Made by a program: the position numbers and the translations under genes. A model generated the notes under the pieces. It searched no databases. It was not told the origin of the DNA and saw only the letters and a program-made list of their open reading frames with translations. From assembly GCA_027297745.1 (NCBI GenBank), contig JAPUHK010000074.1, forward strand, positions 1 through 42,260: a DNA stretch of 42,260 nucleotides, given 5' to 3'. Of this stretch, positions 27,746-42,260 are shown piece by piece (position 1 is the stretch's first letter; every line of letters begins with the position of its first letter). The stretch comes from Planctomycetota bacterium (lineage in GTDB: Bacteria; Planctomycetota; PLA2).

Positions 27746-30649
27746 ATGGCGCAGCTGAAAATCGAGTTCCAGGGCACCTCGACCTTCGTCCATCTGGGCA
27801 AGGAGCCGGTGACCGTGGGGCGCAGTAACCGCTGCACCGTCTGGCTCCCCGATCCCGGCCTGGACGACACGCACTTCCGCATCGACCGCAAGCAGAAGGG
27901 GCTGCGCATCAAGGACTCCGGGTCGCGGACCGGCACCAGGCTCAACGGCAAGACCGTGGTCTCGAGTCGCCTCAAGCACGGCGACGTGATCGAGGCGGGC
28001 GGGTTGCGCTGCACTTATCTCGAGCACGCGGAAGAGACCGCGCCGGCGGCGCGCCCCGCGCACCCGCCGAATCGCGAGCCTCCCCCGCCCCCTGCCGCGC
28101 CGCGCAGTCCGCGCGCCGCAGGGCGGCGCAAGAGCCCGGCGGTCGCGGTCGGCGTTTTCGCGGTCGTGGCTCTCGTGGGCGTGCTCGTCTTCCTGATGAA
28201 GGGTGAGCCGGGCGAGGATCCCGGAGCGCGGGAGCTGTTGGACCGGGCGCACAGCACGTTGCGCGTGGCGCGCAAGGAGCAACAAGATTCCGAGCATTAT
28301 TACCGCAACGCGCGCGCCGCCCTGACGCGCCTGATGCGCGACTACCCGGGCACGCAGGCCGCGCTCTCCGGGACGTTCCTGATCAAGGACGTCGACCGCG
28401 CGTTGAAGCAGTTCAGCGCGCTTCGCGAAGCCGAAAAGGCGGTGCGCGAGTCACAAGACATCCGGCGTCTCGAAGAGACCAGGGGCTTGCTCGCCCGCCT
28501 GAACCGAAACGCGCACCAGGCCATCCTGGTGCGCGTCGCAGCCCTGCGCACCGAGTGCGACACCAAGCTGCGCGAGCTCAAGGACAGCATCTGGAAGACG
28601 GCCTCGGAGGCCGCGGGCGCCTTCCTCGAGGACCACCGCTTCGGGCCGGCGCTGCGCGTGTGGCGCACCTTCCGCGTGCGCCAGCCCGCGATGTCGGCGC
28701 GTGCAGACAAGGTCATCGCGTCGCTGGAGCAGACCTCCTCCCGACGCTACGAGAACCTGTTGGCCGCCGCCAAGCGCACGAAGGACCCGGACGCGCGCAT
28801 CCTCTTCCTGGAGGCGGCGCGGCCGACCTATCGTGGCACACGGCAGGCCGATGACCTCGAAGTGCGCATTTCCGGCCTCAGGGCGCGCCGCTATCAGAAG
28901 CTGCTGCCCCCGCTCGTGCTCAGGCGGGATCCGGGGCAGAAAGAGCCCGCGACCGCGAAGGGCCCGACCGGCCGTCCGCCCACGCCGCAGGAGACCGGTC
29001 CGTACGTCGATCCGAAGGCCGTGGCGGGGCTCGTGGCGGCGCGCCGCTTCGCGAAGGCGGCCGCGGAGTTGCCGAAGCTCAGCCGCCATCCCCTCGTGCC
29101 CGTGCGGCGCGCGGAGCTGGAGCTGCTGGCGGGCTTGAAGCGATCGCTGGTCGACGCTGTCGCCTTCCGCCCCGAGGAGTTCACGAGCTTGAGCCTCCCC
29201 GGCGGCGTGCGCGGCGACGCTTCCGGCGCGGACGAGACCTTCCTGCGCGTCGGCACCGGCGCCGACGAGGTGCGCGTGAAGTGGGGGGCGCTGCCCCCGC
29301 AGAGTTTCGTGCGTCTATTCCGCATGGCGGGCCTGAATCGGCCGCCGCGTCTGGCCGTGGCTTTGTTCTACGACGAGTACGGACTCAAGAAGCGCGCGGA
29401 GCAGGCCTACGTGGCGTACTTCAAGGACGCCGAGGACAAACAGCTCTTCCATCACATCTACGCGCGCCGGCGCGGCATCGATCCGCCGCCGGGCGGATTC
29501 CTCCTGCACGACAAGCAGCTGGTCACGCCCGCCCAGCGCGACTACCTGCTCCTGCAGCGAAGGCTGCGCAAGCTGGAGCGGGACGCCGGCGTCGCGGACA
29601 CGCGCCGCCGCGAGGCGGCCTGGGCGGAGCTGAAGGCGCTCGGCGAGCCCGGGCGCGAGATCCTGCACGCATCCATCAAGCGCCGCCAGAACCAGGTGGC
29701 GGAGGGGCTGAGCGCCTCCAAGGCCTTCAGCCGTACGCGGGCGCTCAACACGTTGGGCCGCAGTCTCGACGCCGCGCGCGACCACGCTCTGAAGATGATC
29801 ATGGACCCCAAGGCTTATCCGTACCCGAGCAAGGTTCCGGCGGCGCAGCAGGAAGTCGACGCGCGGGTCAACAAGGTGCGGCAGATCTACGAGCGCCCGT
29901 ACGAGCTCCTGCTCGAGAAGTCGGAGCAGGCCGGAGAACTGGCTGCGGAGCTACGCGAACTCGACGAGCGCCTGGCCCGCATGGATCCCGACGAGGAGCC
30001 AGATCCACTGTACCCGCGCGTCGTGGAGCGCATCCAGAAGACGCTGGACATGAAGACGTTGGCGCTCGACGGGTCCGACCAGAAGCGCATCAGCTACAAC
30101 GAGCGGGTGATGGAGTACAACCGCACGCTCGAGTTCAAGACCATCGAGCTGCATGAAGAGGAGCGCGCCAACGTCCGCTCCGTGAACGAGTACCGCTGGA
30201 TGATGGGGCTCAGGTGCGTGAAGATCGACGAGCGCCTCGTGCGCGCGGCGCGCAAGCACTCGATCGAGATGCGCCAGCTCGGCTACTTCGCGCATCCGAG
30301 CCCCACGGCAAGCCTGAGGTCGCCCGGCCTGCGCGCGCGACGCGAAGGCTACGGCGGCGGCGTGTCGGAGAACATCGCGCAGGGCCCGGCCAGCGGCCAC
30401 GCAGCCTTCGAAGGGTGGTACGGCTCGTCCGGCCACCACCGCAACATGTGCCAGCCGAACCACACCGAGCTCGGTTGCGGCCAGGACCGCCTGCACTGGT
30501 GGACGCAGAAATTCGGTTCGGCGACGGGGCGCAGCCTCGATGCGCCGAAGGTCGCTCCCGATCCCGACCCGCCCGGCGAGTCGGGCAACGGCAAGGCTGC
30601 CGACACGGCCAAGGGCAGCCCTCCGCCGCGCCGCGGGACCGCCGGCTAG
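27746..30649 (+). CDS. FHA domain - transmembrane helix - long linker - CAP/SCP domain protein
   Basis: N-term VTVGRSNRCTVWLPDPGLDDTHFRIDRKQKGLRIKDSGSRTGTRLNGKTVV...LKHGDVIEAGG (FHA); KSPAVAVGVFAVVALVGVLVFLMKG (TM); C-term VNEYRWMMGLRCVKIDERLVRAARKHSIEMRQLGYFAHPSP...GVSENIAQG...GWYGSSGHHRNMCQPNHTELGCG (CAP). Confidence 0.88.
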   Translation: MAQLKIEFQGTSTFVHLGKEPVTVGRSNRCTVWLPDPGLDDTHFRIDRKQKGLRIKDSGSRTGTRLNGKTVVSSRLKHGDVIEAGGLRCTYLEHAEETAPAARPAHPPNREPPPPPAAPRSPRAAGRRKSPAVAVGVFAVVALVGVLVFLMKGEPGEDPGARELLDRAHSTLRVARKEQQDSEHYYRNARAALTRLMRDYPGTQAALSGTFLIKDVDRALKQFSALREAEKAVRESQDIRRLEETRGLLARLNRNAHQAILVRVAALRTECDTKLRELKDSIWKTASEAAGAFLEDHRFGPALRVWRTFRVRQPAMSARADKVIASLEQTSSRRYENLLAAAKRTKDPDARILFLEAARPTYRGTRQADDLEVRISGLRARRYQKLLPPLVLRRDPGQKEPATAKGPTGRPPTPQETGPYVDPKAVAGLVAARRFAKAAAELPKLSRHPLVPVRRAELELLAGLKRSLVDAVAFRPEEFTSLSLPGGVRGDASGADETFLRVGTGADEVRVKWGALPPQSFVRLFRMAGLNRPPRLAVALFYDEYGLKKRAEQAYVAYFKDAEDKQLFHHIYARRRGIDPPPGGFLLHDKQLVTPAQRDYLLLQRRLRKLERDAGVADTRRREAAWAELKALGEPGREILHASIKRRQNQVAEGLSASKAFSRTRALNTLGRSLDAARDHALKMIMDPKAYPYPSKVPAAQQEVDARVNKVRQIYERPYELLLEKSEQAGELAAELRELDERLARMDPDEEPDPLYPRVVERIQKTLDMKTLALDGSDQKRISYNERVMEYNRTLEFKTIELHEEERANVRSVNEYRWMMGLRCVKIDERLVRAARKHSIEMRQLGYFAHPSPTASLRSPGLRARREGYGGGVSENIAQGPASGHAAFEGWYGSSGHHRNMCQPNHTELGCGQDRLHWWTQKFGSATGRSLDAPKVAPDPDPPGESGNGKAADTAKGSPPPRRGTAG

Positions 30650-30656
30650 GGTGCGG

Positions 30657-30678
30657 GGGCGGCCCCATGCGGCCGCCC
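30657..30678. terminator. GC-rich hairpin between convergent genes (possible bidirectional terminator, no U-tract)
   Basis: GGGCGGCC-ccatgc-GGCCGCCC, perfect 8-bp stem. Confidence 0.5.
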
Positions 30679-30713
30679 TCCCGTTCGAACAATTGCTTCT
30701 GCGAACGTAGCTG

Positions 30714-31547
30714 CTATTTCGGCACGAAGACCGCTTCGTACTCCGGGTAGCGGCCGTCTTCCTTGTCGATGCGCACGAACTGCACCGCCGAGCCGCTCTC
30801 CGTGTTGAGCACGAAGGTGAACTCGCCGGGCAACAGGCCGCGAATCACGAGCGTACCCTCCCTGCCGATGTTGTAGCGCCGCGTGCGCAGGCCCTTGCCT
30901 TCGATGCGCAGCACTCCTTCTTTGGCCTGCACGCGCACGCGGGCCCCGGTCGGGATGTCGATGTCCACGCCCTTCGCGCCGGCCGACGCTTGCACCGGGG
31001 GCGCCGCCGCCTGGGCGATGTACGCACCCTCCGCGTCGCGCAGGTCGGGCGGGAGTTGCACGCTGACGTCGTACACGCCGGGCTTGAGCCCGCCCACGAG
31101 GTACTTCCCGTCGGCGTCGGACCAGCCGGTCTCGGTCAGCCCTCCGTCTTGCGGCGTAGCCTCCACCACGGCTCCTTCGACGGAGCGGCCCTCGAAGCGG
31201 ATCAGCCCGGTGATCGTGCGGGTCGCGAGCAGGGTCAGGATGTGTGGGCCGGCCTGCCCGGCGCGCACGGTGATGCGCCTGCGCGCCGGGAGACGGCCGC
31301 TGGCTCCGCTCTCGAGATAGGCGGGTCCGTACGGCACGCGTTCGAAGCGATACTTGCCGTCCTTATCCGTCCGCGCGTGCCGCTTCCAGGTGGTGGGATC
31401 GCGCAGCGTCACCACCACGTTCGCCAGCGGCTTGCCTTTCTCGTCGAGGACCGCGCCGGTGATGACGCCGTTGCTCTCGACCGGTTCGGGGGTGGAACCG
31501 CATGCGGCCAGCATTACGGCCCCGAGGAGCGTGGCGAGTGAGCGCAT
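30714..31547 (-). CDS. Predicted lipoprotein with carboxypeptidase-regulatory-like (CarboxypepD_reg) repeats
   Basis: MRSLATLLGAVMLAACGSTPEP (lipobox LAAC); ITGAVLDEKGKPLANVVVTLRDPTTWKRHARTDKDGKYRFERVPYG and ITGLIRFEGRSVEGAVVEATPQDGGLTETGWSDADGKYLVGGLKPGVYDV. Confidence 0.82.
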   Translation of the reverse strand: MRSLATLLGAVMLAACGSTPEPVESNGVITGAVLDEKGKPLANVVVTLRDPTTWKRHARTDKDGKYRFERVPYGPAYLESGASGRLPARRRITVRAGQAGPHILTLLATRTITGLIRFEGRSVEGAVVEATPQDGGLTETGWSDADGKYLVGGLKPGVYDVSVQLPPDLRDAEGAYIAQAAAPPVQASAGAKGVDIDIPTGARVRVQAKEGVLRIEGKGLRTRRYNIGREGTLVIRGLLPGEFTFVLNTESGSAVQFVRIDKEDGRYPEYEAVFVPK

Positions 31548-31609
31548 AGGGGCAAGATACCTTCTCGGGCGCCGGTCGGCGTCCCTTGGAGCTACTACGC
31601 TGGTCCCCT

Positions 31610-32500
31610 ATGCCGAGCGCCTACGAGGATCTGCCCACCGAGAGCGTGGATCCCAGCGCCCCGGACCTGGACCGTCTGGACCCCGCCGAGATCGCGCGGC
31701 GGCTGCAGTGGGCGGAGGTGCAGGCGGGGCGCGGCGTGGAGCAGGCGCTGGGGCCCATCGGCGAGGCTTGCCGGGCCGCCGCGGCCGCGCTCGCCGGGGG
31801 CGGGCGCATCGTCTACGCCGGCGCCGGCACCAGTGGCCGGCTCGGAGTCCTGGACGCCGCGGAGATGGAGCCCACGTTCGGCGCGCAGCCGGGTCGCGTC
31901 GTGGCCCTGTTGGCCGGCGGTCCGCCCGCCCTGACGCGCAGCGTGGAAGGGGCCGAGGACGACCAGCAGGCGGGCCGTAAGGAAGCGCGCGGGCTCAGCC
32001 TGGGCCCCCCAGACCTGGTGGTCGGGATCTCCATGTCCGGCACGGCCGCGTACGTGGGCGGCGTGCTGGAGGAGGCGGCCGAGGCCGGTGCGGTCACCGT
32101 GCTGCTGACGGCCTGCGCCTCCTCTCCCTTGCGCGCGCGCCTGCGTATCGTGCTCGAGCTCGGTCCCGAGCTGGTGGCGGGCTCGACGCGGCTCAAGGGC
32201 GGCAGCGCGACCAAGGCTGTGCTGAACATGATCTCGACCGCCGCCATGGCCGGCTCCGGCGCGGTGTACCGCAACCTGATGGTGCGAGTGCGGCCGACCA
32301 ACCGCAAGCTGCGCGACCGCGCGGAGCGCATCATCATGAACGTTGCCGAAGTGCCGCGCGAGCGCGCGGCGAAGCTGCTCAACGCGGCCGAGGACGAGGT
32401 GCCGGTGGCGATCGTGATGCATCGGCGCGGACTCAGCCGGGCGGAAGCCCAAAGGCGGCTCGACGATTGCGGCGGCTCTCTCAGGGAGGCGCTTGGTTGA
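31610..32500 (+). CDS. murQ: N-acetylmuramic acid 6-phosphate etherase
   Basis: YAGAGTSGRLGVLDAAEMEPTFG, EGAEDDQQAG, GISMSGTAAYVGGVLEEA, TRLKGGSATKAVLNMISTAAM, LNAAEDEVPVAIVMHRRGLSRAEAQRRLDDCGGSLREAL. Confidence 0.94.
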   Translation: MPSAYEDLPTESVDPSAPDLDRLDPAEIARRLQWAEVQAGRGVEQALGPIGEACRAAAAALAGGGRIVYAGAGTSGRLGVLDAAEMEPTFGAQPGRVVALLAGGPPALTRSVEGAEDDQQAGRKEARGLSLGPPDLVVGISMSGTAAYVGGVLEEAAEAGAVTVLLTACASSPLRARLRIVLELGPELVAGSTRLKGGSATKAVLNMISTAAMAGSGAVYRNLMVRVRPTNRKLRDRAERIIMNVAEVPRERAAKLLNAAEDEVPVAIVMHRRGLSRAEAQRRLDDCGGSLREALG

Positions 32501-33675
32501 AGCGCCTGGAGGAGATCCTGCGCAAGGACGCGCGGTTGGTCGCCGGAGTGCTCAGCGGGACCTCGGCGGACGGCATCGACGCCGCGCTCGTGCGCGTGCG
32601 GGGCCACGGCCTGGACACGGACGTCGAGTTGCTGCACTTCCACTCGACGCCCTTCTCGGACGTGATGCGGCAGGCGCTGTTGCAGATGGGCACGGGCAAG
32701 GTGGCGGACCTGTGCCGGCTCAACTTCGAGTTGGGGGAGCGCTTCGCCGATGCCTGCCTGCACCTGTTCCACAGCGCCGCCGTGGCGCCGGACGAGGTGG
32801 ACCTGATCGGCTCCCACGGGCAGACCGTCTACCACGTGCCCCGCAGCACGCACCCGCACGGGTCAGGCTCGACGTTGCAGATCGGCGAGGCCTCGGTGAT
32901 CGCCGAGCGTACGGGCCGCATGGTCGTCTCCGACTTCCGCACGCGCGACATCGCGGCGGGCGGCGAAGGCGCGCCCTTGAGCGCGTACGTGGACTACCTG
33001 CTGTACCGGCCCGCGCCGGACGGGCCCCCGCGCGCGCTGCTCAACCTCGGCGGCATCGCCAACGTGACGCTCGTGGCGCGCGACCTGGATGAGGTCTTCG
33101 CCTTCGACACGGGGCCCGCCAACATGCCGCTGGACGAAGCGATGCGCGCCATGAGCGGCGGGGAGCGGACCTACGACCGGGAGGGGCGCACGGCGGCGCA
33201 GGGCCGCGTCGACGAAAACCTGCTCAACAAGCTGCTCGAGCATCCATATTTCAGGCAGCCGATTCCCAAGAGCACCGGCCGCGAGACCTTCGGTCGCGAG
33301 TTCGTGCTGCCGCTGCTGCGCGGCAAAGGCCAGAACCGCGCCGTGGATGTGCTGGCCACGCTGACAGCCTTCGTGGCGCAGTCCATTCGCACCGCGTTCG
33401 ACGACTTCGTGCTGCCGCGGCTAAAGCCGGTTGAGGTCGTGGTCAGCGGCGGCGGTGTCCACAACCTCACCCTGATGGGCCACTTGCGCCGCCTGTTCGG
33501 GGGGCTCAGAGTACGCAGCCTGGATCAGATCGGGGAGCTCGGGCTCAACCCCGACGCCAAGGAGGCGGTGATCTTCGCCGTGCTCGCCAACGAGACGGTG
33601 CACGGCCTGCCGAACAACCTGCCGGGCGCCACGGGGGCTCGCTGGCCCGTCGTGCTGGGAAAGATCACGCCGTAA
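32497..33675 (+). CDS. anmK: Anhydro-N-acetylmuramic acid kinase
   Basis: LVAGVLSGTSADGIDAALVRV, DLIGSHGQTVYHVP, LQIGEASVIAERTGRMVVSDFRTRDIAAGGEGAPLSAYVDYLLYR, LNLGGIANVTLV, FDTGPANMPLDEAM, VSGGGVHN; TTG start overlapping murQ stop (TTGA). Confidence 0.94.
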   Translation: MKRLEEILRKDARLVAGVLSGTSADGIDAALVRVRGHGLDTDVELLHFHSTPFSDVMRQALLQMGTGKVADLCRLNFELGERFADACLHLFHSAAVAPDEVDLIGSHGQTVYHVPRSTHPHGSGSTLQIGEASVIAERTGRMVVSDFRTRDIAAGGEGAPLSAYVDYLLYRPAPDGPPRALLNLGGIANVTLVARDLDEVFAFDTGPANMPLDEAMRAMSGGERTYDREGRTAAQGRVDENLLNKLLEHPYFRQPIPKSTGRETFGREFVLPLLRGKGQNRAVDVLATLTAFVAQSIRTAFDDFVLPRLKPVEVVVSGGGVHNLTLMGHLRRLFGGLRVRSLDQIGELGLNPDAKEAVIFAVLANETVHGLPNNLPGATGARWPVVLGKITP

Positions 33676-33678
33676 GCC

Positions 33679-35043
33679 ATGCGCACTCCTGCCGCGCGTC
33701 TGGTCATCCCGATCCTGCAGTACGAGGCGGCGCGCCTCACGCTGGATCCGTTCCTGCGGTGGGCGGAAGCCGGAGTGGGCGGCTTTTGCATCTTCGGTGC
33801 CGGCAAGCACCTGCCGGCCGTGCTCGCTCGGCTGCAGGAGGCCGCGCCGCATCCGCTCCTGTTCGTGGCCGACCTCGAACACGGCGCCGGGCAGCAGCTG
33901 CACGGCGGCACACACCATCCGCCCGCGGCCGCGTTGGATCAGGAGGCGGCGGCCGCCGCGGCCGCGCTGACCGCGCTCGAGGCGCGCGCGCAGGGCGTGA
34001 CGATGACCTTCGCCCCTGTCTGCGACGTGCTTACCGAGCCGCGCAACCCGATTCTCAACGCGCGCTGCTTCAGCGATCCGGTGGCCACGGCGCCGGTGTT
34101 TTGCCGCGCGGCGCGACGCACCGGCTTGCGCACGTGCGCCAAGCACTTCCCCGGTCACGGCGGCACGCGCGCGGACAGCCACAACGTCCTGCCGCACGTC
34201 GCCGACGACGCGGCCACGTGGGCCAAGCGCGACCTGCCTCCGTTCCAGGCGTGCTTCGATGCCGGCGTGGACGCCGTCATGAGCGCCCACATCGACATGC
34301 CGGCGCTGACGGGACAGCCCGGCCTGCCGGCCACGCTGTCCTCGCGCGTGATGACGGAGATCCTGCGCGAGGAGCTCGGCTTTGCCGGCACCGTCTTCAG
34401 CGACGCGTTGCTGATGGACGGTGTGCGCGGGAAGAGGGATGAAGGGGAGGTGGCCCTGGCCGCCTTCGCCGCGGGCTGCGACGTCTTGTTGGGGCCCCAC
34501 AAGCCGGGGGCCGTGCTGCGCGCCATCGAGGGGCTGCGCGGCCCGGGCCTCGAAAGCGCGTTGGCGCGCATCGACGCGCTTGCGAAACCGTTGGAGCCGG
34601 AGGTCGACCTGCCGCACGACGAGCTCGTGCCCGTGTTGCAGGCGGCCGCGGAGCGCTCCATCACCGCTTCGGGCGGCGTCGAAGCCGTGGGTCCGGGCCG
34701 CTACGCGCTGCGCATCCTCGACCTGCATGGAGAGGGCCGCGTGCTCGGCGAACGCAGCGGGTTCGCCTGGCGGAGCTACGGCCTCGACGGCCGGCTGTTG
34801 GAGGAGGAAGACCAGGGGCCCGGCCTCGGCGGGATCGTCTTGTGCGTGGCGCGGCGCGATAAGGCCTCGGGTGGACCCGTTGAGATCCCGTCCACGATCC
34901 GGCGTGTGATGCAGGACGCGGACCTGACACTCTTGTTTGGTCCGTCCTGGCTCGCCGAGGACGCCTCTGCCCCGTACTTGCATGCTCCAGGTGAGGACCC
35001 CTTCACCGTTGCCGCCATGCTGCGCCGGGCGCACGGCGCATGA
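33679..35043 (+). CDS. Glycoside hydrolase family 3 beta-N-acetylhexosaminidase (NagZ-like)
   Basis: CAKHFPGHGGTRADSHNVLPHV (GH3 NagZ His/Asp dyad loop), FAGTVFSDALLMDGVR (nucleophile region), VMSAHIDMPAL. Confidence 0.88.
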   Translation: MRTPAARLVIPILQYEAARLTLDPFLRWAEAGVGGFCIFGAGKHLPAVLARLQEAAPHPLLFVADLEHGAGQQLHGGTHHPPAAALDQEAAAAAAALTALEARAQGVTMTFAPVCDVLTEPRNPILNARCFSDPVATAPVFCRAARRTGLRTCAKHFPGHGGTRADSHNVLPHVADDAATWAKRDLPPFQACFDAGVDAVMSAHIDMPALTGQPGLPATLSSRVMTEILREELGFAGTVFSDALLMDGVRGKRDEGEVALAAFAAGCDVLLGPHKPGAVLRAIEGLRGPGLESALARIDALAKPLEPEVDLPHDELVPVLQAAAERSITASGGVEAVGPGRYALRILDLHGEGRVLGERSGFAWRSYGLDGRLLEEEDQGPGLGGIVLCVARRDKASGGPVEIPSTIRRVMQDADLTLLFGPSWLAEDASAPYLHAPGEDPFTVAAMLRRAHGA

Positions 35044-36788
35044 GCGACGTCGACTGGATCATCGTCGGCTTCTACATCGTGCTCGTCTGGGCTATCGGGT
35101 TCTGGCTCTCGCGCCGGGCCACGCGCTCGACGGCCGAGTTCTTCGCGTCCGGCCGGGGCCTGCCGTGGTGGTTGATCGGCACCTCGATGGCGGCCTCCGC
35201 GTTTTCTTCGGATACGCCGCACTACGTGGCGCGGCTGGCGCGCGAGTCCGGCGTGGCCCGCAACTGGGAGTGGTGGGGCGTCGGGATCGGCGGCGTGCTG
35301 GTGGCCTTCATCATCGCGCCGCTCTGGCGCCGCGTCGGCGTGCTGACGGACCTCGAGTTGATCGAGTTGCGCTACGGCGGCAAGGCGGCCGCCGCCCTGC
35401 GCGGGTTCCGCGCCGTGCACACGGGCCTCCTGTTCAACGTGCTGACCATGGCGGCACCGCTGGCCGGCATGCTGCTGGTGGTCGAAGCCGTGGTCCCGGA
35501 GTTCCCCGTGCAGGCGCTGCAGTTCGAGCTCGGAACGGCGCTCGTGCTGGCCACGGTCCTGTACTCTTTCTTCGGCGGCTTTTGGGGCGTCGTCGTCACC
35601 GATTTTCTGCAGTTCGTGATCGCCATGGTTGCGGCGGTCGTGCTGGCTGTGGTCGCCGTGGACCACGCCGGCGGCCTCGACCGAGTGCTGGAGGTGGCCG
35701 CCCGGAACGTGGAGCTGCAAGCCTTCGACTTCAGCGTGTCTTCTCCGGACCCGTGGACGGAGGGCCTGCTGCCCTTCCTGGTCTTCGCGCTGGTCCAGTG
35801 GTGGGCCTTCATGAACGCCGACGGCGGGGGCAAGCTCGTGCAGCGCATGGTGGCCGCCAAGAACGAGCGGCACGCCGTGTGGGGCACGCTGTGGTTCAAC
35901 GTCACGCATTACGCCCTGCGCACCTGGCCGTGGGTCATCGTGGGGCTCAGCTCGCTCGTGCTGCTGCCCGATATCGAGCCGCGCCTAGCCTACGCCGGCA
36001 CGGCCGCGCACGTGCTGCCCGCCGGCCTGCTAGGACTGTTCGTGGCCTCTTTCGTCGCGGCCTACATGTCGACGGTGGACACCCAGCTGAACTGGGGCTC
36101 CAGCTACCTGGTCCACGACCTCTACAGGCGCTTCCTCGTGCGCGGCCGCACGGAGAGCCACTACGTTGGAGTAGCACGTCTGTTCACGTTGCTCCTGGGC
36201 CTGGGCGCCGTGGGCATGCTCGCCCTCGGAGACAAGGAAGGCGGCGTCACGCAATACCTGCGGTTGGCCATGCGCATCGGCAGCGGCTACGGCATCGCCT
36301 TGCTCGCGCGCTGGTTCTGGTGGCGCGCCACCGCAGTGTCGGAGATCGTCGCCCTGGCCACGGCGTTTGCGGTGACCGTCGCCTATCACCCGAGGATTGG
36401 GCTCATGCCGGCCGGGCACGCGTACGCGTTGAAATTGCTCGTCACGGCCGGCATCACGGGCGCCGCCTGGTTGCTGAGCGTGCTGCTGTTGCGTGTGCGG
36501 GCGCCGGACGGCCTGGTCGACTTCTACAGGCGGGCGCGCCCGCCGGGCTGGTGGGGGCCCGTGGCGGCGCTCGCGCCGGACGTGCAGCGGCGCCGCTTGG
36601 ACGGTTGGCGCGCGGGCGTGTGCGGGCTGCTTCTGGTCTTCGGGCTCACTCTGGGGCTGGGCGGCTGGCTGCTGGGGGCGGCGGGAACTGGGGTGTGGGC
36701 CTGGCTGGCGGTGGCAGCTGCGGGAGGCCTCGGCGTGGCGTTTTCTGCTCGCGGTATCGGCCCGCAACAGGGCGCGGCAGGCCCGTAG
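35040..36788 (+). CDS. Sodium:solute symporter (SSS) family transporter
   Basis: About 13 hydrophobic segments; DVDWIIVGFYIVLVWAIGFWLSRRATRSTAEFFASGRGLPWWLIGTSMAASAFSSDTPHYVARLAR is typical of the SSS N-terminus; ATGA overlap with the GH3 gene. Confidence 0.9.
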   Translation: MSDVDWIIVGFYIVLVWAIGFWLSRRATRSTAEFFASGRGLPWWLIGTSMAASAFSSDTPHYVARLARESGVARNWEWWGVGIGGVLVAFIIAPLWRRVGVLTDLELIELRYGGKAAAALRGFRAVHTGLLFNVLTMAAPLAGMLLVVEAVVPEFPVQALQFELGTALVLATVLYSFFGGFWGVVVTDFLQFVIAMVAAVVLAVVAVDHAGGLDRVLEVAARNVELQAFDFSVSSPDPWTEGLLPFLVFALVQWWAFMNADGGGKLVQRMVAAKNERHAVWGTLWFNVTHYALRTWPWVIVGLSSLVLLPDIEPRLAYAGTAAHVLPAGLLGLFVASFVAAYMSTVDTQLNWGSSYLVHDLYRRFLVRGRTESHYVGVARLFTLLLGLGAVGMLALGDKEGGVTQYLRLAMRIGSGYGIALLARWFWWRATAVSEIVALATAFAVTVAYHPRIGLMPAGHAYALKLLVTAGITGAAWLLSVLLLRVRAPDGLVDFYRRARPPGWWGPVAALAPDVQRRRLDGWRAGVCGLLLVFGLTLGLGGWLLGAAGTGVWAWLAVAAAGGLGVAFSARGIGPQQGAAGP

Positions 36789-36842
36789 GGAGCACCCAGG
36801 CGGATCTGTCTCACCTCCTGGCCTCGGGGCCCGAGATCTGCC

Positions 36843-36872
36843 TTGCAAAGGGCCCCTCGTTGTTCTTAGATA
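36843..36872 (+). promoter_or_regulatory. Weak sigma-70-like promoter candidate upstream of the secreted HEAT protein
   Basis: TTGCAA - 18 nt - TAGATA; only a partial match at -10; strong SD AAGGAGGAACCC precedes ATG 36969. Confidence 0.25.
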
Positions 36873-36968
36873 CCGGGCCTGCCCGGATTCCGTAAACCCT
36901 GGGCAAGGCAGAGAATAGCGCGGCCGAGGGCCCGCAGCGAAGACCCTTAAGCGAGCAAGGAGGAACCC

Positions 36969-39224
36969 ATGGCGACAGCTAGAAAGCCCCTGGGCAGGGT
37001 TTGTGTGCTGATCGCGCTAGTGGCCACGGCATTCTGTCTCCAGACCAGCGCAGACGCGCAAGGAGACGAATTCGAGGCCGTCCTGAAGGACGGGCTCCGC
37101 CAGGTGCGGGCGGGTAACTATGAGGAGGGCATTCGCAAGCTGCGTCAGGCCCTCGCCATGGACCCGACCAGCGACCAGGTCATTGCCGCTCTCGGGCGCG
37201 CCGAATACGAAGCGATGTTGTCGGTTCTGGCCGCGGGCCGGCCCGCCGCCAACATCATGCGCGAGATTCTGGACCGCGCGGATCCCGTCCTGCCGGACAG
37301 GAAGTTCGACTGGGATGAGCTGAAGCGCCTGGTGATTACGACCGTCACCTCCGAGAGCTACGAAGAGCGCTTCGACGCCGGTCTGACACTCGGCCGCGTG
37401 TACGGCGAATACGCCGTGCCGGGGCTGGTCGCCTATCTCGGCTCCAGCAACACCGACCATAAGGTCAATGCGCAAATCACCCTGATGCAGCGCATCGGCA
37501 ACCAAGCGGTGCTGCCGTTGAACGAGGCGCTGCGCAGCAGCAACCCGAACGTGCGCCGCCTCGTGGCCGCCGCGCTGCAGAGGATCGGCGACATCCGCTC
37601 GTTGCCGGCGCTGGCCGGCGCCAGTGAGACGGACACGAACGAGAGCGCCCGCCGCGCCTCGACCCGTGCGCTCGAGTCGCTGACCCAGAAGTTCCCGGAG
37701 GCCGCCGGCCGCCGCGCCGCCGACCTCTACTTGTGGCTGTCGAACGGCTACTACAGCGATCTCTACCGCGTGAGGAGCTTCACCGACAAGCCGCTCGCGG
37801 TCTGGCACTGGAAGGACGGGCTCAAGTACACGCCGGCCCCGCGCCACATGTACACGATCGAGCTGGCGGAGGAGGCGGTCTACGACTCCCTGCGTCTCGA
37901 CCCGTCCAGCGCGGCTGCGCGCTCCTTGCTGGCGCGCGTGCTCGTGAGCGGCCACGCCGCTGCCGTCGCGGGCGCCGCGTTGACCGACGACGAGTCGGCG
38001 GCCAAGGCGAAGGCCGACAGCGCCTGGGTGCCCGGCGTCGTAGCGAGCCTCGGTTGGAACACACTCGGCCGCGCGCTGTCCGACAGCCTCGAGAGCGACG
38101 ACCACCAGGTCGCCGCCGCGCTGCTCGGCATCATGCCGGAGGTGTACGGCTCGGCCGACTTCAACGCGGAGAACCCCGTGGTGCGCGCCATGTACAACAA
38201 CGCGAACGTCGTGCGCTACTCGGCGGCGAACGCGGTGCTGCGCTTCAACGGCCACCGGCGCATCAGCGCCTTCCCCGATCCCGACGGCTTCCTGACGCTG
38301 GTCGGCGAGAGCATCGGGGCGGCCGTGCCGCGGCAGATCCTGGTCATCGACGCCGGCGACGTGCGGCGCAACAAGGTCCTGAACGAGCTGCAGAAGAACG
38401 GCTACATCTCTTACGACGCGCGCAGCGCCACGAGCGGCATCGTGCGGGCCGTCCGCTTCCAGGGCCTCGATCTGATCGTCCTGGCCGCCGAGCTGCCGGA
38501 CATGGAGGTGCTGGGCGCCATCGACCGGCTCAAGAAGGACGTGCGCACCAAGCACATCCCCATCGTGTTGCTGGCCGGTGCTGACCAGGCGGCGGACGAG
38601 GGCTGGCGCACCACCTATGAAGGCAAGGTCGACGGGATCACCTCGGTGCCGGAGGGCGTCGGCCTGCCCGCCGAAGCCTTCATGCGCACCATCATGGGTG
38701 CCTTCGGAGGGGCGCGGCCGGACGCGCAGGCGCGTTACGCGATCAGTGCCACCACGCTGACGTCTCTGGCCGGCACGGACACGGAGAACAGCCTGTTCGG
38801 CTGGGCCGCGTTGACCGAGACCGTGGCGAACGTCGTGGGCAGCGAGGCGCCGGCCGACGTCCAGCTCGCGGCCGTCAACGCGCTCGGCAACCTGGGCGAC
38901 GCGAGCGCGGTCGCCAAGCTGGGTGAGGTCTTCGGGAAGGGTGGCGACGCCGGCATGCGTGCGGCGGCTGGCAACGCGATCGCGGGCATCTGCCGTCGCG
39001 GCCAGGTCGTGCTCGATGACGCGACCTTCGGCGTGCTCTTGCGCGGCACGTCGGACAGTAACGCCGACGTGCGCATGGCGGCCTTCACGGCGCTGGGCTC
39101 GGCCGACCTGTCGGCCGCCCAGTCGATGAACGTGGCGCGCGCCAACCGTCCCGGCGAGGGCGGGGGTGCGGCCGTCGCCGAGGGCTGCGGTTGCGGTTGC
39201 GGCTGCGGTTGCGGCATGGAATAG
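36969..39224 (+). CDS. Predicted secreted TPR/HEAT-repeat protein with receiver-like (pseudo-REC) domain and C-terminal (Gly-Cys)5 tail
   Basis: Signal peptide MATARKPLGRVCVLIALVATAFCLQTSADAQG; TPR-like LRQVRAGNYEEGIRKLRQALAMDP; HEAT-like blocks; REC-like RQILVIDAGDVRRNKVLNELQKNGYISYDARSATSGIVRAVRFQGLDLIVLAAELPDMEVLGAIDRLKKDVRTKHIPIVLLAG; C-term EGCGCGCGCGCGME. Confidence 0.85.
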   Translation: MATARKPLGRVCVLIALVATAFCLQTSADAQGDEFEAVLKDGLRQVRAGNYEEGIRKLRQALAMDPTSDQVIAALGRAEYEAMLSVLAAGRPAANIMREILDRADPVLPDRKFDWDELKRLVITTVTSESYEERFDAGLTLGRVYGEYAVPGLVAYLGSSNTDHKVNAQITLMQRIGNQAVLPLNEALRSSNPNVRRLVAAALQRIGDIRSLPALAGASETDTNESARRASTRALESLTQKFPEAAGRRAADLYLWLSNGYYSDLYRVRSFTDKPLAVWHWKDGLKYTPAPRHMYTIELAEEAVYDSLRLDPSSAAARSLLARVLVSGHAAAVAGAALTDDESAAKAKADSAWVPGVVASLGWNTLGRALSDSLESDDHQVAAALLGIMPEVYGSADFNAENPVVRAMYNNANVVRYSAANAVLRFNGHRRISAFPDPDGFLTLVGESIGAAVPRQILVIDAGDVRRNKVLNELQKNGYISYDARSATSGIVRAVRFQGLDLIVLAAELPDMEVLGAIDRLKKDVRTKHIPIVLLAGADQAADEGWRTTYEGKVDGITSVPEGVGLPAEAFMRTIMGAFGGARPDAQARYAISATTLTSLAGTDTENSLFGWAALTETVANVVGSEAPADVQLAAVNALGNLGDASAVAKLGEVFGKGGDAGMRAAAGNAIAGICRRGQVVLDDATFGVLLRGTSDSNADVRMAAFTALGSADLSAAQSMNVARANRPGEGGGAAVAEGCGCGCGCGCGME

Positions 39225-39245
39225 CCGCCACAGGCTTTGGAGTGC

Positions 39246-39278
39246 AAAACCCCCGGTCGTCATGGCCGGGGGTTTTTT
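39246..39278 (+). terminator. Rho-independent terminator after the HEAT/pseudo-REC gene
   Basis: AAAACCCCCGG-tcgtcatgg-CCGGGGGTTTTTT: 11-bp stem followed by a T-tract. Confidence 0.9.
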
Positions 39279-39376
39279 CGTGGCAGCGGATGCGAACACG
39301 AACCCGCGGACGGAAGCAACAGATGGTTCGAACGGTAGGGCGGTGCCTCTATCTGTTGCTGCCGCCCTCGTGCTCG

Positions 39377-39751
39377 CTACCGTTCGGCGATCGCGACGGC
39401 AGCCGCGGTCGAGCGCGAGTGGGTGATGCTGATGTGCCAGCGCTCGATACCCAACTCCTGCGCGCGCTCGGCGGTCTTGCCCTCGAGCTCCACGAACGGC
39501 GCTCCGCCGGGCCCGCGCAACACCGCGATCTCGCCGAAGGCCGCTCCGGCCATGCCCGTGCCCAACGCCTTCATCACGGCCTCTTTGGCCGCGAACTGCC
39601 CGGATACGTAGGCCGGGCCCTCCGCGGTGCGGGCCCGCGCCGCATCCTCGTCCGCGTGCAGGATGCGCCGCAGGAAGCTCTCGGCGCTGCGCTCCAGGAT
39701 CGCGGCCACGCGCGCCACATCCACGACGTCCAGGCCTAGGCCGACGATCAC
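39377..39751 (-). CDS. acpS: Holo-[acyl-carrier-protein] synthase
   Basis: MIVGLGLDVVDVARVAAILER, YVSGQFAAKEAVMKALGTGM, WHISITHSRSTAAAVAIAER. Confidence 0.93.
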   Translation of the reverse strand: MIVGLGLDVVDVARVAAILERSAESFLRRILHADEDAARARTAEGPAYVSGQFAAKEAVMKALGTGMAGAAFGEIAVLRGPGGAPFVELEGKTAERAQELGIERWHISITHSRSTAAAVAIAER

Positions 39752-40182
39752 CGGGGGCCCTCGGACACCTTGATCAGCGCGCCGGAGAGATCGGCGCCGT
39801 CCAGCTTGGCGTCCGTAAGGTCCGCACCCTGCAGGTTCGCGTCGCGCAAGACCGCGTTTCGCAGGTCCGCGCCGTGCAGGTTGGCCACCGCCAGGTTGGC
39901 CCTGCGGAAATCCGCCCCGGCCGCCTTGACGCCGGTCAGGTTGGCGCCGAACAGGTCCGCCTCGCTCAGGTCCGCGCCCTCCAGCCGCGCGAACGAGAGG
40001 TTCGCGTCGGTCAGCTGCGCGGCGAACAACAACGCGTCGCGCAGGTCCGCCTCCCTCAGGTCGGCCCCCTTGAGCACGGCCAGGGAGAGGTTGACCTCGG
40101 TCAGCTTCTTCAGGCTCAGGTCAGCACCCGCCAGCCTTGCACGGACCAGGTTGTCGCCGGGGCCGATCGCGCGTTCCGTCAT
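39748..40182 (-). CDS. Pentapeptide repeat protein
   Basis: Runs of A(D/N)LXX: GADLSLKKLTEVNLSLAVLKGADLREADLRDALLFAAQLTDANLSFARLEGADLSEADLFGANLTG...ANLHGADLRNAVLRDANLQGADLTDAKLDGADLSGA; 4-nt overlap with acpS. Confidence 0.93.
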   Translation of the reverse strand: MTERAIGPGDNLVRARLAGADLSLKKLTEVNLSLAVLKGADLREADLRDALLFAAQLTDANLSFARLEGADLSEADLFGANLTGVKAAGADFRRANLAVANLHGADLRNAVLRDANLQGADLTDAKLDGADLSGALIKVSEGPR

Positions 40183-40661
40183 TGCGTCAGGTATCCCTTG
40201 ACGATGTCGTATGCGTCGCGCGCGCGCCGGTCGCTACGGTCTACCGGCGCCCCGGGCGCGAAGCGCACCTCTATCGGCTGGATGGCCTCGAGGCCCAGGA
40301 GATCGCGCAGCGTGCGGCTGCGGTCCAGGCCGTCCGTGTACTCGCGGCGGAGCTCCATCAGGTTGGCGCGCCGGTCCACGATCTGCCTGGCGTGGGCCAG
40401 CATCTCCTGTTGGGAGTCCTCGACGCGGTCTGCCAGGCGCGCCAGCAACGATCCTTCCAGGTAATCGAGGTAGGCCTCGAGCTGTTCCCGGTCGGTGCTG
40501 TGGATCTCCTCCCGCAGCTGCTCGACCAGCTTGGCATAGGCCTGCCGGCGGGCCTCGGGGGCTTTCTCCCGCTCGGTCTCGTGGTGGCGCCGGCGCGCCT
40601 TGCGGAGCAGGTTCTCCAGGCCCACGAGCCTCCGGACGGGGTCGCTCAGATGGTGCGACAT
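40179..40661 (-). CDS. Hypothetical charged, predicted coiled-coil protein
   Basis: 160 aa, rich in Arg/Glu/Leu heptad-like segments (AYAKLVEQLREEIHSTDREQLEAYLDYLEGSLLARLADRVEDSQQEML); 4-nt overlap with the pentapeptide gene. Confidence 0.7.
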   Translation of the reverse strand: MSHHLSDPVRRLVGLENLLRKARRRHHETEREKAPEARRQAYAKLVEQLREEIHSTDREQLEAYLDYLEGSLLARLADRVEDSQQEMLAHARQIVDRRANLMELRREYTDGLDRSRTLRDLLGLEAIQPIEVRFAPGAPVDRSDRRARDAYDIVKGYLTQ

Positions 40662-40816
40662 CGACCCAACTCCTTATGGAAAAGGACTGTACGGCGCACT
40701 ACCCCCGGGTTCAAGAGTGGCTCGGCTTGAGCCGATCTGTGATCCCTAGTGGTCGGGGTCCAATCCGGGTGAACCCTCGATCCCTGGTAGAATCCCCCGG
40801 CCGCCGCAGGCTACGC

Positions 40817-40996
40817 ATGGGCAAGAAGAAAGACTGCTTCGGAAGCGAGACGTACGTCTGCATGACGCCCAACTGCCCCTACGCCGCCGAGTGCATCAAG
40901 GTGGTGTGGGGAAAGAAGTTGGAGCGCATCCTGGCCGGCAAGAACAAGCCGGCCCGCCCCCGTCTCAAGCGCAGCCGCCTCACCGTGGACGGCTGA
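40817..40996 (+). CDS. Small Cys-containing basic protein
   Basis: 59 aa: MGKKKDCFGSETYVCMTPNCPYAAECIKVVWGKKLERILAGKNKPARPRLKRSRLTVDG; four Cys in a CX7CX4CX5C arrangement. Confidence 0.6.
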   Translation: MGKKKDCFGSETYVCMTPNCPYAAECIKVVWGKKLERILAGKNKPARPRLKRSRLTVDG

Positions 40997-41627
40997 TTCC
41001 GGCCGCCCGCCGGACGGCCTCGACCCCCTCCCCGAGCTCGCCCTTCCAGCGTTGCCCCATGAGCTCCTTCAGGCTCGCAGGCTCCGGCCTGCGACCCAGG
41101 GGGATCTCGAGGCCCAGCCAGAGGTCGAAGCGCTCGGCGCCCCCCGCCTGGTAGCCGCATGCCAGCACAGCCGCGCGCCGTACCACCTGGGAGCGGTCCT
41201 TCAAGGCGCTCAGCAACTCGGGGCCGTCGGGGTGGTGGACCCCGGCTGCCAGCACGAGCAGCGCGCGGACACGTGGGTTCGTGTCGGCGCGCGCCTCCCG
41301 TGACAGCACCTGCCGGGCGTCGGGCGCCAGGGCGGCCGAGACGCGCAACCACTCCTCGCTCAGCGGCGGCGTGCCGTGGGCCAGGGCGTCGCGCAGGTCT
41401 TCGGTTAGCGTGTCGATCGTCTCGTAGGGCCTGAGCGCGACCGCGTCTTGAGCGGTCGCGTAGCCCGGAAGCCCCGACTCCCCGTCCGCGTCTCCCGTCG
41501 CGGCGACCGCGGCAGGCCTGTCGGGCCCCGCGTCCGGGCGCGGACCGCTGTCCCCGAGAAGGTACAGCGCAGCGCCGGTCACGGCCGCCGCGACCGCCAG
41601 CAGCAGGGCGATGGCTCCGCTCTTCAC
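40980..41627 (-). CDS. Membrane-anchored hypothetical protein with HEAT-like segment
   Basis: N-terminal signal/anchor MKSGAIALLLAVAAAVTGAALYLLG; C-terminal NPRVRALLVLAAGVHHPDGPELLSALKDRSQVVRRAAVLACGYQAGG is HEAT-like. Confidence 0.7.
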   Translation of the reverse strand: MKSGAIALLLAVAAAVTGAALYLLGDSGPRPDAGPDRPAAVAATGDADGESGLPGYATAQDAVALRPYETIDTLTEDLRDALAHGTPPLSEEWLRVSAALAPDARQVLSREARADTNPRVRALLVLAAGVHHPDGPELLSALKDRSQVVRRAAVLACGYQAGGAERFDLWLGLEIPLGRRPEPASLKELMGQRWKGELGEGVEAVRRAAGISRPR

Positions 41628-42259
41628 CGCGGCGCCCGGACTACGCGGAAGCCGCGGTAGATGCGGTCCAGCCGCCAGTTGGCGAACGGCTCGGTGACGT
41701 ACTCGTAGTCCGCCGTCATGACCGAGCCAGGCGGAGGGGGCGTCTTGGCGACAAAGGAGCGCTCGTTGGTCTGGGCGGACTCCAACGGGATGGGCACCCC
41801 GTCGGCGTAGAGCACCGCCTTTGCATTGGGGAGCGGGTAGTCCGGCGGCTGCTCCTCTGCCGGCGATTCCTCTTCGGGCGCCTCGTCTTCGGGCGCTAGC
41901 GGGGGAAGTGGAAAGACGCGCTGGTCGGTGCCGGACAGGCCTAGGGGCACGCCCTTGTGGAAGCGCGGCTCATCCGTCAGCAGGTTGAGCTGCACGAACT
42001 GCACCTCCCCGTCCGGGCCTTCGGCGGGCAGGAAGGAGTCGAGCGTGCAGTACTCGGCGGGAAGCTCGTAGCAGCCGCCCGCCAACAGCACGCTGTCGCG
42101 CGTCGTGACGTACTCCTGAACGTTGCCGGCCAGGCCCGCCGGCTGGCCGGCCTGGTCGCCGTACCGGCCCCACAGAGAGATCGGCCGCGCCTGCCACGCG
42201 CGGCTGTTCGAGTACTCGCGGGAGTTCATGCCCAGGTCGTTGGCGCTCTTGCCCCAAGG
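41624..42259 (-). CDS. Formylglycine-generating enzyme/SUMF1-like domain protein, C-terminal part (5' truncated by window edge)
   Basis: AGLAGNVQEYVTTRDSVLLAGGCYELP and terminal YRGFRVVRAPR resemble the FGE-sulfatase family; frame stays open to the window edge (PWGKSANDLGMNSREYSNSRAW). Confidence 0.65.
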   Translation of the reverse strand, partial: PWGKSANDLGMNSREYSNSRAWQARPISLWGRYGDQAGQPAGLAGNVQEYVTTRDSVLLAGGCYELPAEYCTLDSFLPAEGPDGEVQFVQLNLLTDEPRFHKGVPLGLSGTDQRVFPLPPLAPEDEAPEEESPAEEQPPDYPLPNAKAVLYADGVPIPLESAQTNERSFVAKTPPPPGSVMTADYEYVTEPFANWRLDRIYRGFRVVRAPR

Positions 42260-42260
42260 G

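Follow-up and report, generated by a model that had tools for sequence, protein, structure and literature searches.

The window, as we call the whole 42,260-nucleotide stretch of planctomycete DNA analysed here, carries at 36969-39224 on the plus strand a single ORF of 751 amino acids with an ATG start, predicted to encode an exported protein of HEAT repeats and a pseudo-receiver (HEAT/REC hereafter). The third-position GC content of this gene stays at 0.74-1.0 from end to end, the block for the C-terminus included, and since it is high along the whole length we take the reading frame to be real throughout. The gene is single-copy in its own genome. Directly upstream on the same strand lie four genes that the original prediction did not mention: the N-acetylmuramic acid 6-phosphate etherase MurQ (31586-32500; NCBIfam 9e-98), the anhydro-N-acetylmuramic acid kinase AnmK (32467-33675; PF03702 1e-99), a NagZ-like beta-N-acetylhexosaminidase of family GH3 with no obvious signal peptide (33679-35043; PF00933 4e-54, and NCBIfam 9e-41, below the cut-off of that model), and a sodium:solute symporter (SSF; 35040-36788; PF00474 2e-32).

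The HEAT/REC gene is flanked by expression signals of its own. A Shine-Dalgarno sequence, AAGGAGG, stands at 36957-36963 (+), with GGGAGGA or a similar motif kept in relatives, and a 13-bp intrinsic terminator hairpin at 39246-39276 (+; -24 kcal/mol, z -3.5) follows the stop; both the strong ribosome-binding site and the terminator had been predicted and are borne out. The plausible upstream promoter of that prediction has partial support. A promoter-like TTGCAA-N18-TAGATA at 36843-36872 (+), ~100 nt before the start codon, falls in a block that aligns in 5/5 members of the family group, all five fitting a TTGNAA...TTANNTA-like consensus, but a sigma-70 pattern scan found no promoter; the same scan also missed the terminator hairpin. 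An Rfam search of 30000-42260 gave no matches. Since both a terminator and promoter-like elements belong to the gene itself, cotranscription with the upstream genes is not required, and it seems able to be transcribed alone. We also observed a near-invariant promoter-like element in the sister family f2, CTTGACAC...CGTA-ACTCC, also written TTCTTGACACC...CGTA(C/G)ACTCC, roughly 110-150 nt before the start codon in 11/11 genomes (L010-L012, L015, L017-L020, L023, L027 and L029).

Using an alignment of 69 members extracted from related genomes and covering 36 planctomycete families (each written as f with a number), we were able to separate shared features of the protein from local ones. A predicted Sec signal peptide (residues 1-30; 36969-37058) is followed by TPR-like helices at residues 36-102 (37074-37274), which are helical in the structure model and match Pfam TPR_19 at 2.5e-4, below its cut-off. 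Residues 115-452 (37311-38324) make up an N-terminal HEAT solenoid and a following helical region, with HEAT_2 at 150-236 (1e-18) and helices in the model. The pseudo-receiver occupies residues 455-580 (38331-38708), C-terminal HEAT repeats occupy residues 584-725 (38718-39143; HEAT 3.7e-10, HEAT_PBS 1e-4, and the model), and the protein ends in a short tail, EGCGCGCGCGCGME (39180-39221). The TPR/HEAT-like repeats of the original prediction are thereby confirmed, the HEAT part well above Pfam gathering scores (67.5 bits against 27.7 for HEAT_2 and 39.5 against 23.5 for HEAT). HEAT_2 was detected in 25/25 family members, and the whole-protein AlphaFold2 model, built from a 25-member alignment, has a mean pLDDT of 85.

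Searches with the whole protein say little about function. Foldseek of the full-length model returned just loose matches to HEAT/ARM solenoids (TMq 0.12-0.24) and named no function, and the best PDB sequence matches are alphaRep proteins, covering the repeats only. With bacterial HEAT proteins (HEAT_2, PBS lyase HEAT and alphaRep) the protein has HEAT_2 in common at 1e-18, and these matches span only the repeats. We found no enzyme or sugar-binding signature in it. Two identities were tried and rejected on NCBIfam scores far below the cut-offs: phycobilin lyase (the CpcE/CpcF models) and a PleD or PhoB equivalog.

By inspection, the N-terminus of the window protein, MATARKPLGRVCVLIALVATAFCLQTSADA followed by Q, is a type-I signal peptide with an n-region RKPLGR, a hydrophobic stretch and an ADA-Q cleavage site, as had been predicted. 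Inspection showed no lipobox Cys at the cleavage site of this N-terminus, so the protein is not classed as a lipoprotein. In the homologues, hydropathy and charge patterns reveal a signal-type N-terminal hydrophobic segment in 69/69 members, weak in one (L079), and no further membrane segment in any of the 69. A positively charged n-region such as RKPLGR puts the body of the protein outside, under the positive-inside rule. By this heuristic export is predicted to be a trait of the whole HEAT/REC family, and we infer that the protein would be soluble and periplasmic.

The central domain has a REC fold, as structure models and a profile match confirm. The whole-protein model has five strands with alternating helices at residues 456-579, and the isolated domain, modelled by AlphaFold2 with 29 homologous domains, reached a pLDDT of 91.6 and a pTM of 0.87. 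Foldseek of this isolated domain found PhoB, CheY, DivK and RpaA at TM 0.75-0.82 with an rmsd of mostly 1.6-2.8 A, and the best matches listed are receivers or response regulators. A profile of the family domain retrieved PleD (1.5e-19), PhoB (6e-13) and a CheY (7e-12), with FrzS also among the matches. Pfam Response_reg matches weakly, under its gathering score, at 1e-3 for the whole protein and 5e-5 for the isolated domain; 15/25 family members match it at E<0.1. In family f41, helix 1 of the domain is missing in the alignment.

The active site of this domain has largely gone. In the window protein the phospho-acceptor is Ala506, the second acid is Ala462, the Thr/Ser position is Ala536 and the Lys position is Val560, leaving D461 as the one residue retained. 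Across the 69 members, 7 retain the phospho-Asp, 30 the second acid, 19 the Thr/Ser and 10 the Lys, and none has the full set of five. Since all four residues are gone in the window protein and the full set is found in 0/69, the domain is best called a pseudo-receiver and, from its sequence, is not expected to work as a receiver. The receiver-like domain of the original prediction thus holds as to fold and falls short as to function. Of the three findings named beforehand as refuting that prediction, two (homologues lacking a signal peptide, and a central region not folding as REC) were looked for and the outcome favoured the prediction. When the REC columns are left out of the tree, the state of Asp506 needs at least 5 changes on it; the structural Asp501 at the start of strand 3 is kept in 68/69 members. 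A fold retained while its chemistry decays suggests a structural or binding role.

We considered whether the domain might still be a live phospho-acceptor in some lineages, acting as a cytoplasmic or membrane-tethered two-component partner, e.g. of an adjacent NtrC-type regulator. The phospho-Asp of seven members could be read in this way, as could the four of five positions in L077 (f64) and the divergent NtrC-type regulators that lie nearby in f9, f17, f31, f45 and f62. We regard this as very improbable, given that the window protein has lost phospho-Asp, second acid, Thr/Ser and Lys, that no member has all five residues, and that members keeping Asp506 carry signal segments too. We know of no periplasmic phosphodonor kinase. 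The best-kept active site, that of L077 (genome G125), has Asp, Asp, Thr and Lys and misses only the second acid, despite a signal peptide; it may preserve the ancestral state. The NtrC-type regulators, which are divergently transcribed, were seen next to AnmK or the HEAT/REC gene at L053, L070-L072, L044, L054, L075, L080 and L079; in f45, where no AnmK was found, the regulator directly faces the HEAT/REC gene.

Set beside the PF00072 receivers (PleD, PhoB, DivK and CheY), the pseudo-receiver has in common the (beta-alpha)5 fold, the PleD profile match at 1.5e-19 and the structural Asp with which beta3 begins. It differs from them in the loss of phosphorylation residues in nearly all members and in its place inside an exported repeat protein rather than a cytoplasmic regulator. 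The receiver of FrzS, a cytoplasmic protein, is a REC fold used without phosphorylation. Both are thus pseudo-receivers, whereas the one in HEAT/REC is set among HEAT repeats, with a predicted place beyond the cytoplasmic membrane.

The C-terminal tail is a (Gly-Cys)5 repeat with five Cys within 11 residues; it is predicted to be disordered (pLDDT <50 for residues 731-751) and is lineage-specific. The original prediction had presented an exported receiver with a Cys-Gly tail as an architecture, and here the comparison goes against it. A weaker version, GEGCGEGCGEGEG, occurs in G001 of the same family; the tail is absent from the same-family genomes G002 and G003, and the G004 protein is cut off by a contig end. 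Among members with a known end, other families included, all the rest carry at most one Cys in the final 40 residues. The suggested search for homologues with signal peptide, pseudo-REC and CG repeat together came out divided, with the signal and the degenerate REC common and the tail not. By this comparison the tail is not part of the shared family architecture. Its coding sequence is a hexamer, GGYTGC, repeated almost perfectly, and the genome has no second instance of the (GC)4 codon pattern; the tail looks like a recent low-complexity extension of this lineage. A disulfide or metal role for the tail is possible, and nothing supports a conserved one. That the tail is instead the functional core of an exported metal-binding or disulfide-forming protein seems to us highly unlikely: the five closely spaced Cys, the uniqueness of the repeat in the genome and the version in G001 would fit, but a core would not be expected to be missing from G002, G003 and all other members with a known end, to be disordered, or to be encoded by the kind of hexamer repeat that slippage produces.

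The close relatives of the window protein are from Planctomycetota MAGs, and a scan of a genome collection with four close members matched only the four same-family MAGs. In the tree without REC columns, 12 of the 13 GTDB families with at least 2 members form one branch each, and because of this we read inheritance as mostly vertical. The HEAT/REC family is widespread across Planctomycetota and, from this branching, probably old. The components are known (HEAT repeats, the REC fold and pseudo-receivers). Their union in exported proteins that are spread widely through a single phylum did not turn up in the open literature on exported receivers and planctomycete HEAT proteins, which takes in few subscription journals.

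We then used gene order in relatives to ask how far the neighbourhood of the window gene is shared. The position of the best homologue was compared with that of AnmK in 149 related genomes, 57 of which have both genes. In 20 of the 57, belonging to 10 families, AnmK precedes the HEAT/REC gene on the same strand at no more than 3.3 kb, and in nine of these the gap is <0.5 kb. Strand and order are identical in 20/20 linked cases, often with a NagZ-like GH3 or an SSF in between. Counted from coordinates, a NagZ-like GH3 adjoins the HEAT/REC gene in 18 genomes of 4 families, and MurQ is also near in f1, f28 and f69. All linked genomes fall within a single half of the family tree, which means that the 10 families do not represent 10 independent events. 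The two genes are unlinked in 37/57 genomes, some possibly through short contigs alone, and neighbours in the remaining half have no common theme. Linkage to the murein-recycling cluster is thus a conserved feature, but of the first half alone.

This pattern bears on whether the HEAT/REC protein is a general structural protein of the planctomycete envelope, with no special tie to peptidoglycan and an AnmK order inherited by chance. The half of the tree without AnmK linkage agrees with that explanation, as do the gene's own promoter-like elements and terminator and the many genomes that have a family member without AnmK, or AnmK without a family member. However, the window neighbours that were tested in relatives (MurQ, GH3, SSF, acpS, the pentapeptide gene, FHA-CAP, ValS and others) do not persist together. 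In f9, f17, f26 and f31, AnmK is the sole one still beside the gene, and the acpS, pentapeptide and FHA-CAP genes were not detected there. Simple leftover synteny is disfavoured because AnmK alone persists in these four families, and the uniform strand and order of the 20 linked cases also argue against a chance arrangement. We consider the general-envelope explanation rather unlikely, while giving it more weight than any other alternative discussed here.

Several other neighbours were observed. Upstream of MurQ-AnmK, the window encodes a protein of 967 aa (27746-30649) that combines FHA in its N-terminal part with CAP/SCP in its C-terminal part, and its relatives are found close to HEAT/REC in f1, f2 and f69; as FHA is a cytoplasmic phosphopeptide-binding domain and CAP/SCP is normally exported, the arrangement would be membrane-spanning. 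Beyond the terminator, a convergent acpS and a pentapeptide-repeat gene lie at 39377-40182 (-), with acpS keeping its place in f1 and part of f2, while the pentapeptide gene does so in f1 and some of f28. Within the half of the tree without AnmK linkage, some members have a gene for a nickel-insertion protein (PF01969) or for a pseudouridine synthase as their neighbour (L082, L083 and related neighbour ORFs, and L081).

The symporter offers a further alternative, in which the HEAT/REC protein would bind ligands for the SSF in the periplasm, or serve it as an accessory protein, passing it a cell-wall sugar or another solute, with the pseudo-receiver as the ligand-responsive part. An SSF is directly upstream in f1, f2 and f41, and these involve two SSF subfamilies. 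In f41 it holds that place in 4 genomes and is the reciprocal best match of the window SSF, with neither AnmK nor GH3 near. A pocket-bearing alpha/beta fold retained after loss of the catalytic residues would also suit a ligand-binding part. On the other hand, the adjacency is limited to these three families, and to part of f1, and solenoids of the HEAT/TPR type usually bind proteins. To our knowledge, known SSF transporters generally do not need binding proteins. We therefore find an SSF-accessory role unlikely. The second SSF subfamily (~30% identity) occupies the same upstream place in G001, G006 and G007, and one of the two subfamilies could be a cell-wall sugar importer in these planctomycetes.

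From the export signal, the domain fold, the loss of the active site, the vertical inheritance and the linkage to AnmK, GH3 and SSF, we propose that the HEAT/REC protein may be a solenoid that acts as a scaffold in the periplasm, in connection with peptidoglycan turnover. This is the reading we favour, at somewhat less than even confidence. The TPR/HEAT repeats, with the pseudo-receiver as a docking module, would hold envelope partners, for which murein-cleaving enzymes or the neighbouring SSF transporter are candidates. In the cytoplasm the NagZ-like GH3, AnmK and MurQ would salvage the sugars of anhydro-muropeptides. Because these three enzymes are expected to be cytoplasmic, any functional link to the HEAT/REC protein would cross the membrane and be indirect, and the biochemical step that it might serve is stated here only as part of this proposal. 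A more specific form, which we think improbable, is that of a phylum-wide family of extracytoplasmic pseudo-receivers, in which a REC fold moved to the periplasm as part of a HEAT solenoid and ceased to be phosphorylated. It would now be a sensor or organiser of cell-wall turnover, with a muropeptide or a cell-wall enzyme as a conceivable binding partner, and would act alongside an SSF that may replace AmpG in the peptidoglycan recycling of planctomycetes.

Known periplasmic proteins provide partial likenesses to the proposed scaffold. LpoA, the periplasmic activator of PBP1A, is a lipoprotein with a helical-repeat part and an alpha/beta domain that is not a REC fold. By general description, helical repeats and an alpha/beta domain are common to LpoA and the HEAT/REC protein, which differ in that LpoA is a lipoprotein and its domain non-REC. 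NlpI is an E. coli outer-membrane TPR lipoprotein that scaffolds peptidoglycan hydrolases (PMC7049810). Like NlpI, the HEAT/REC protein would be a periplasmic helical-repeat scaffold for cell-wall enzymes, a role that is proposed for the latter; NlpI is, however, a TPR lipoprotein that lacks a REC-like domain, and the likeness is one of proposed role only, with no homology shown.

Because relatives in many species adjoin cell-wall recycling genes, the locus may encode a helper protein for cell-wall turnover that has so far gone undescribed. The planctomycete cell wall was long disputed, and we found no planctomycete peptidoglycan recycling pathway in the open literature, with most subscription journals outside the scope of that search. 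In textbooks the receiver domain is the cytoplasmic phospho-switch. A widespread and mostly vertically inherited family that exports the REC fold, its chemistry lost, would be a case of REC taken up again beyond the cell membrane, for structure or for binding. Should the linkage with AnmK, NagZ and SSF prove functional, it would name testable components of planctomycete peptidoglycan recycling.
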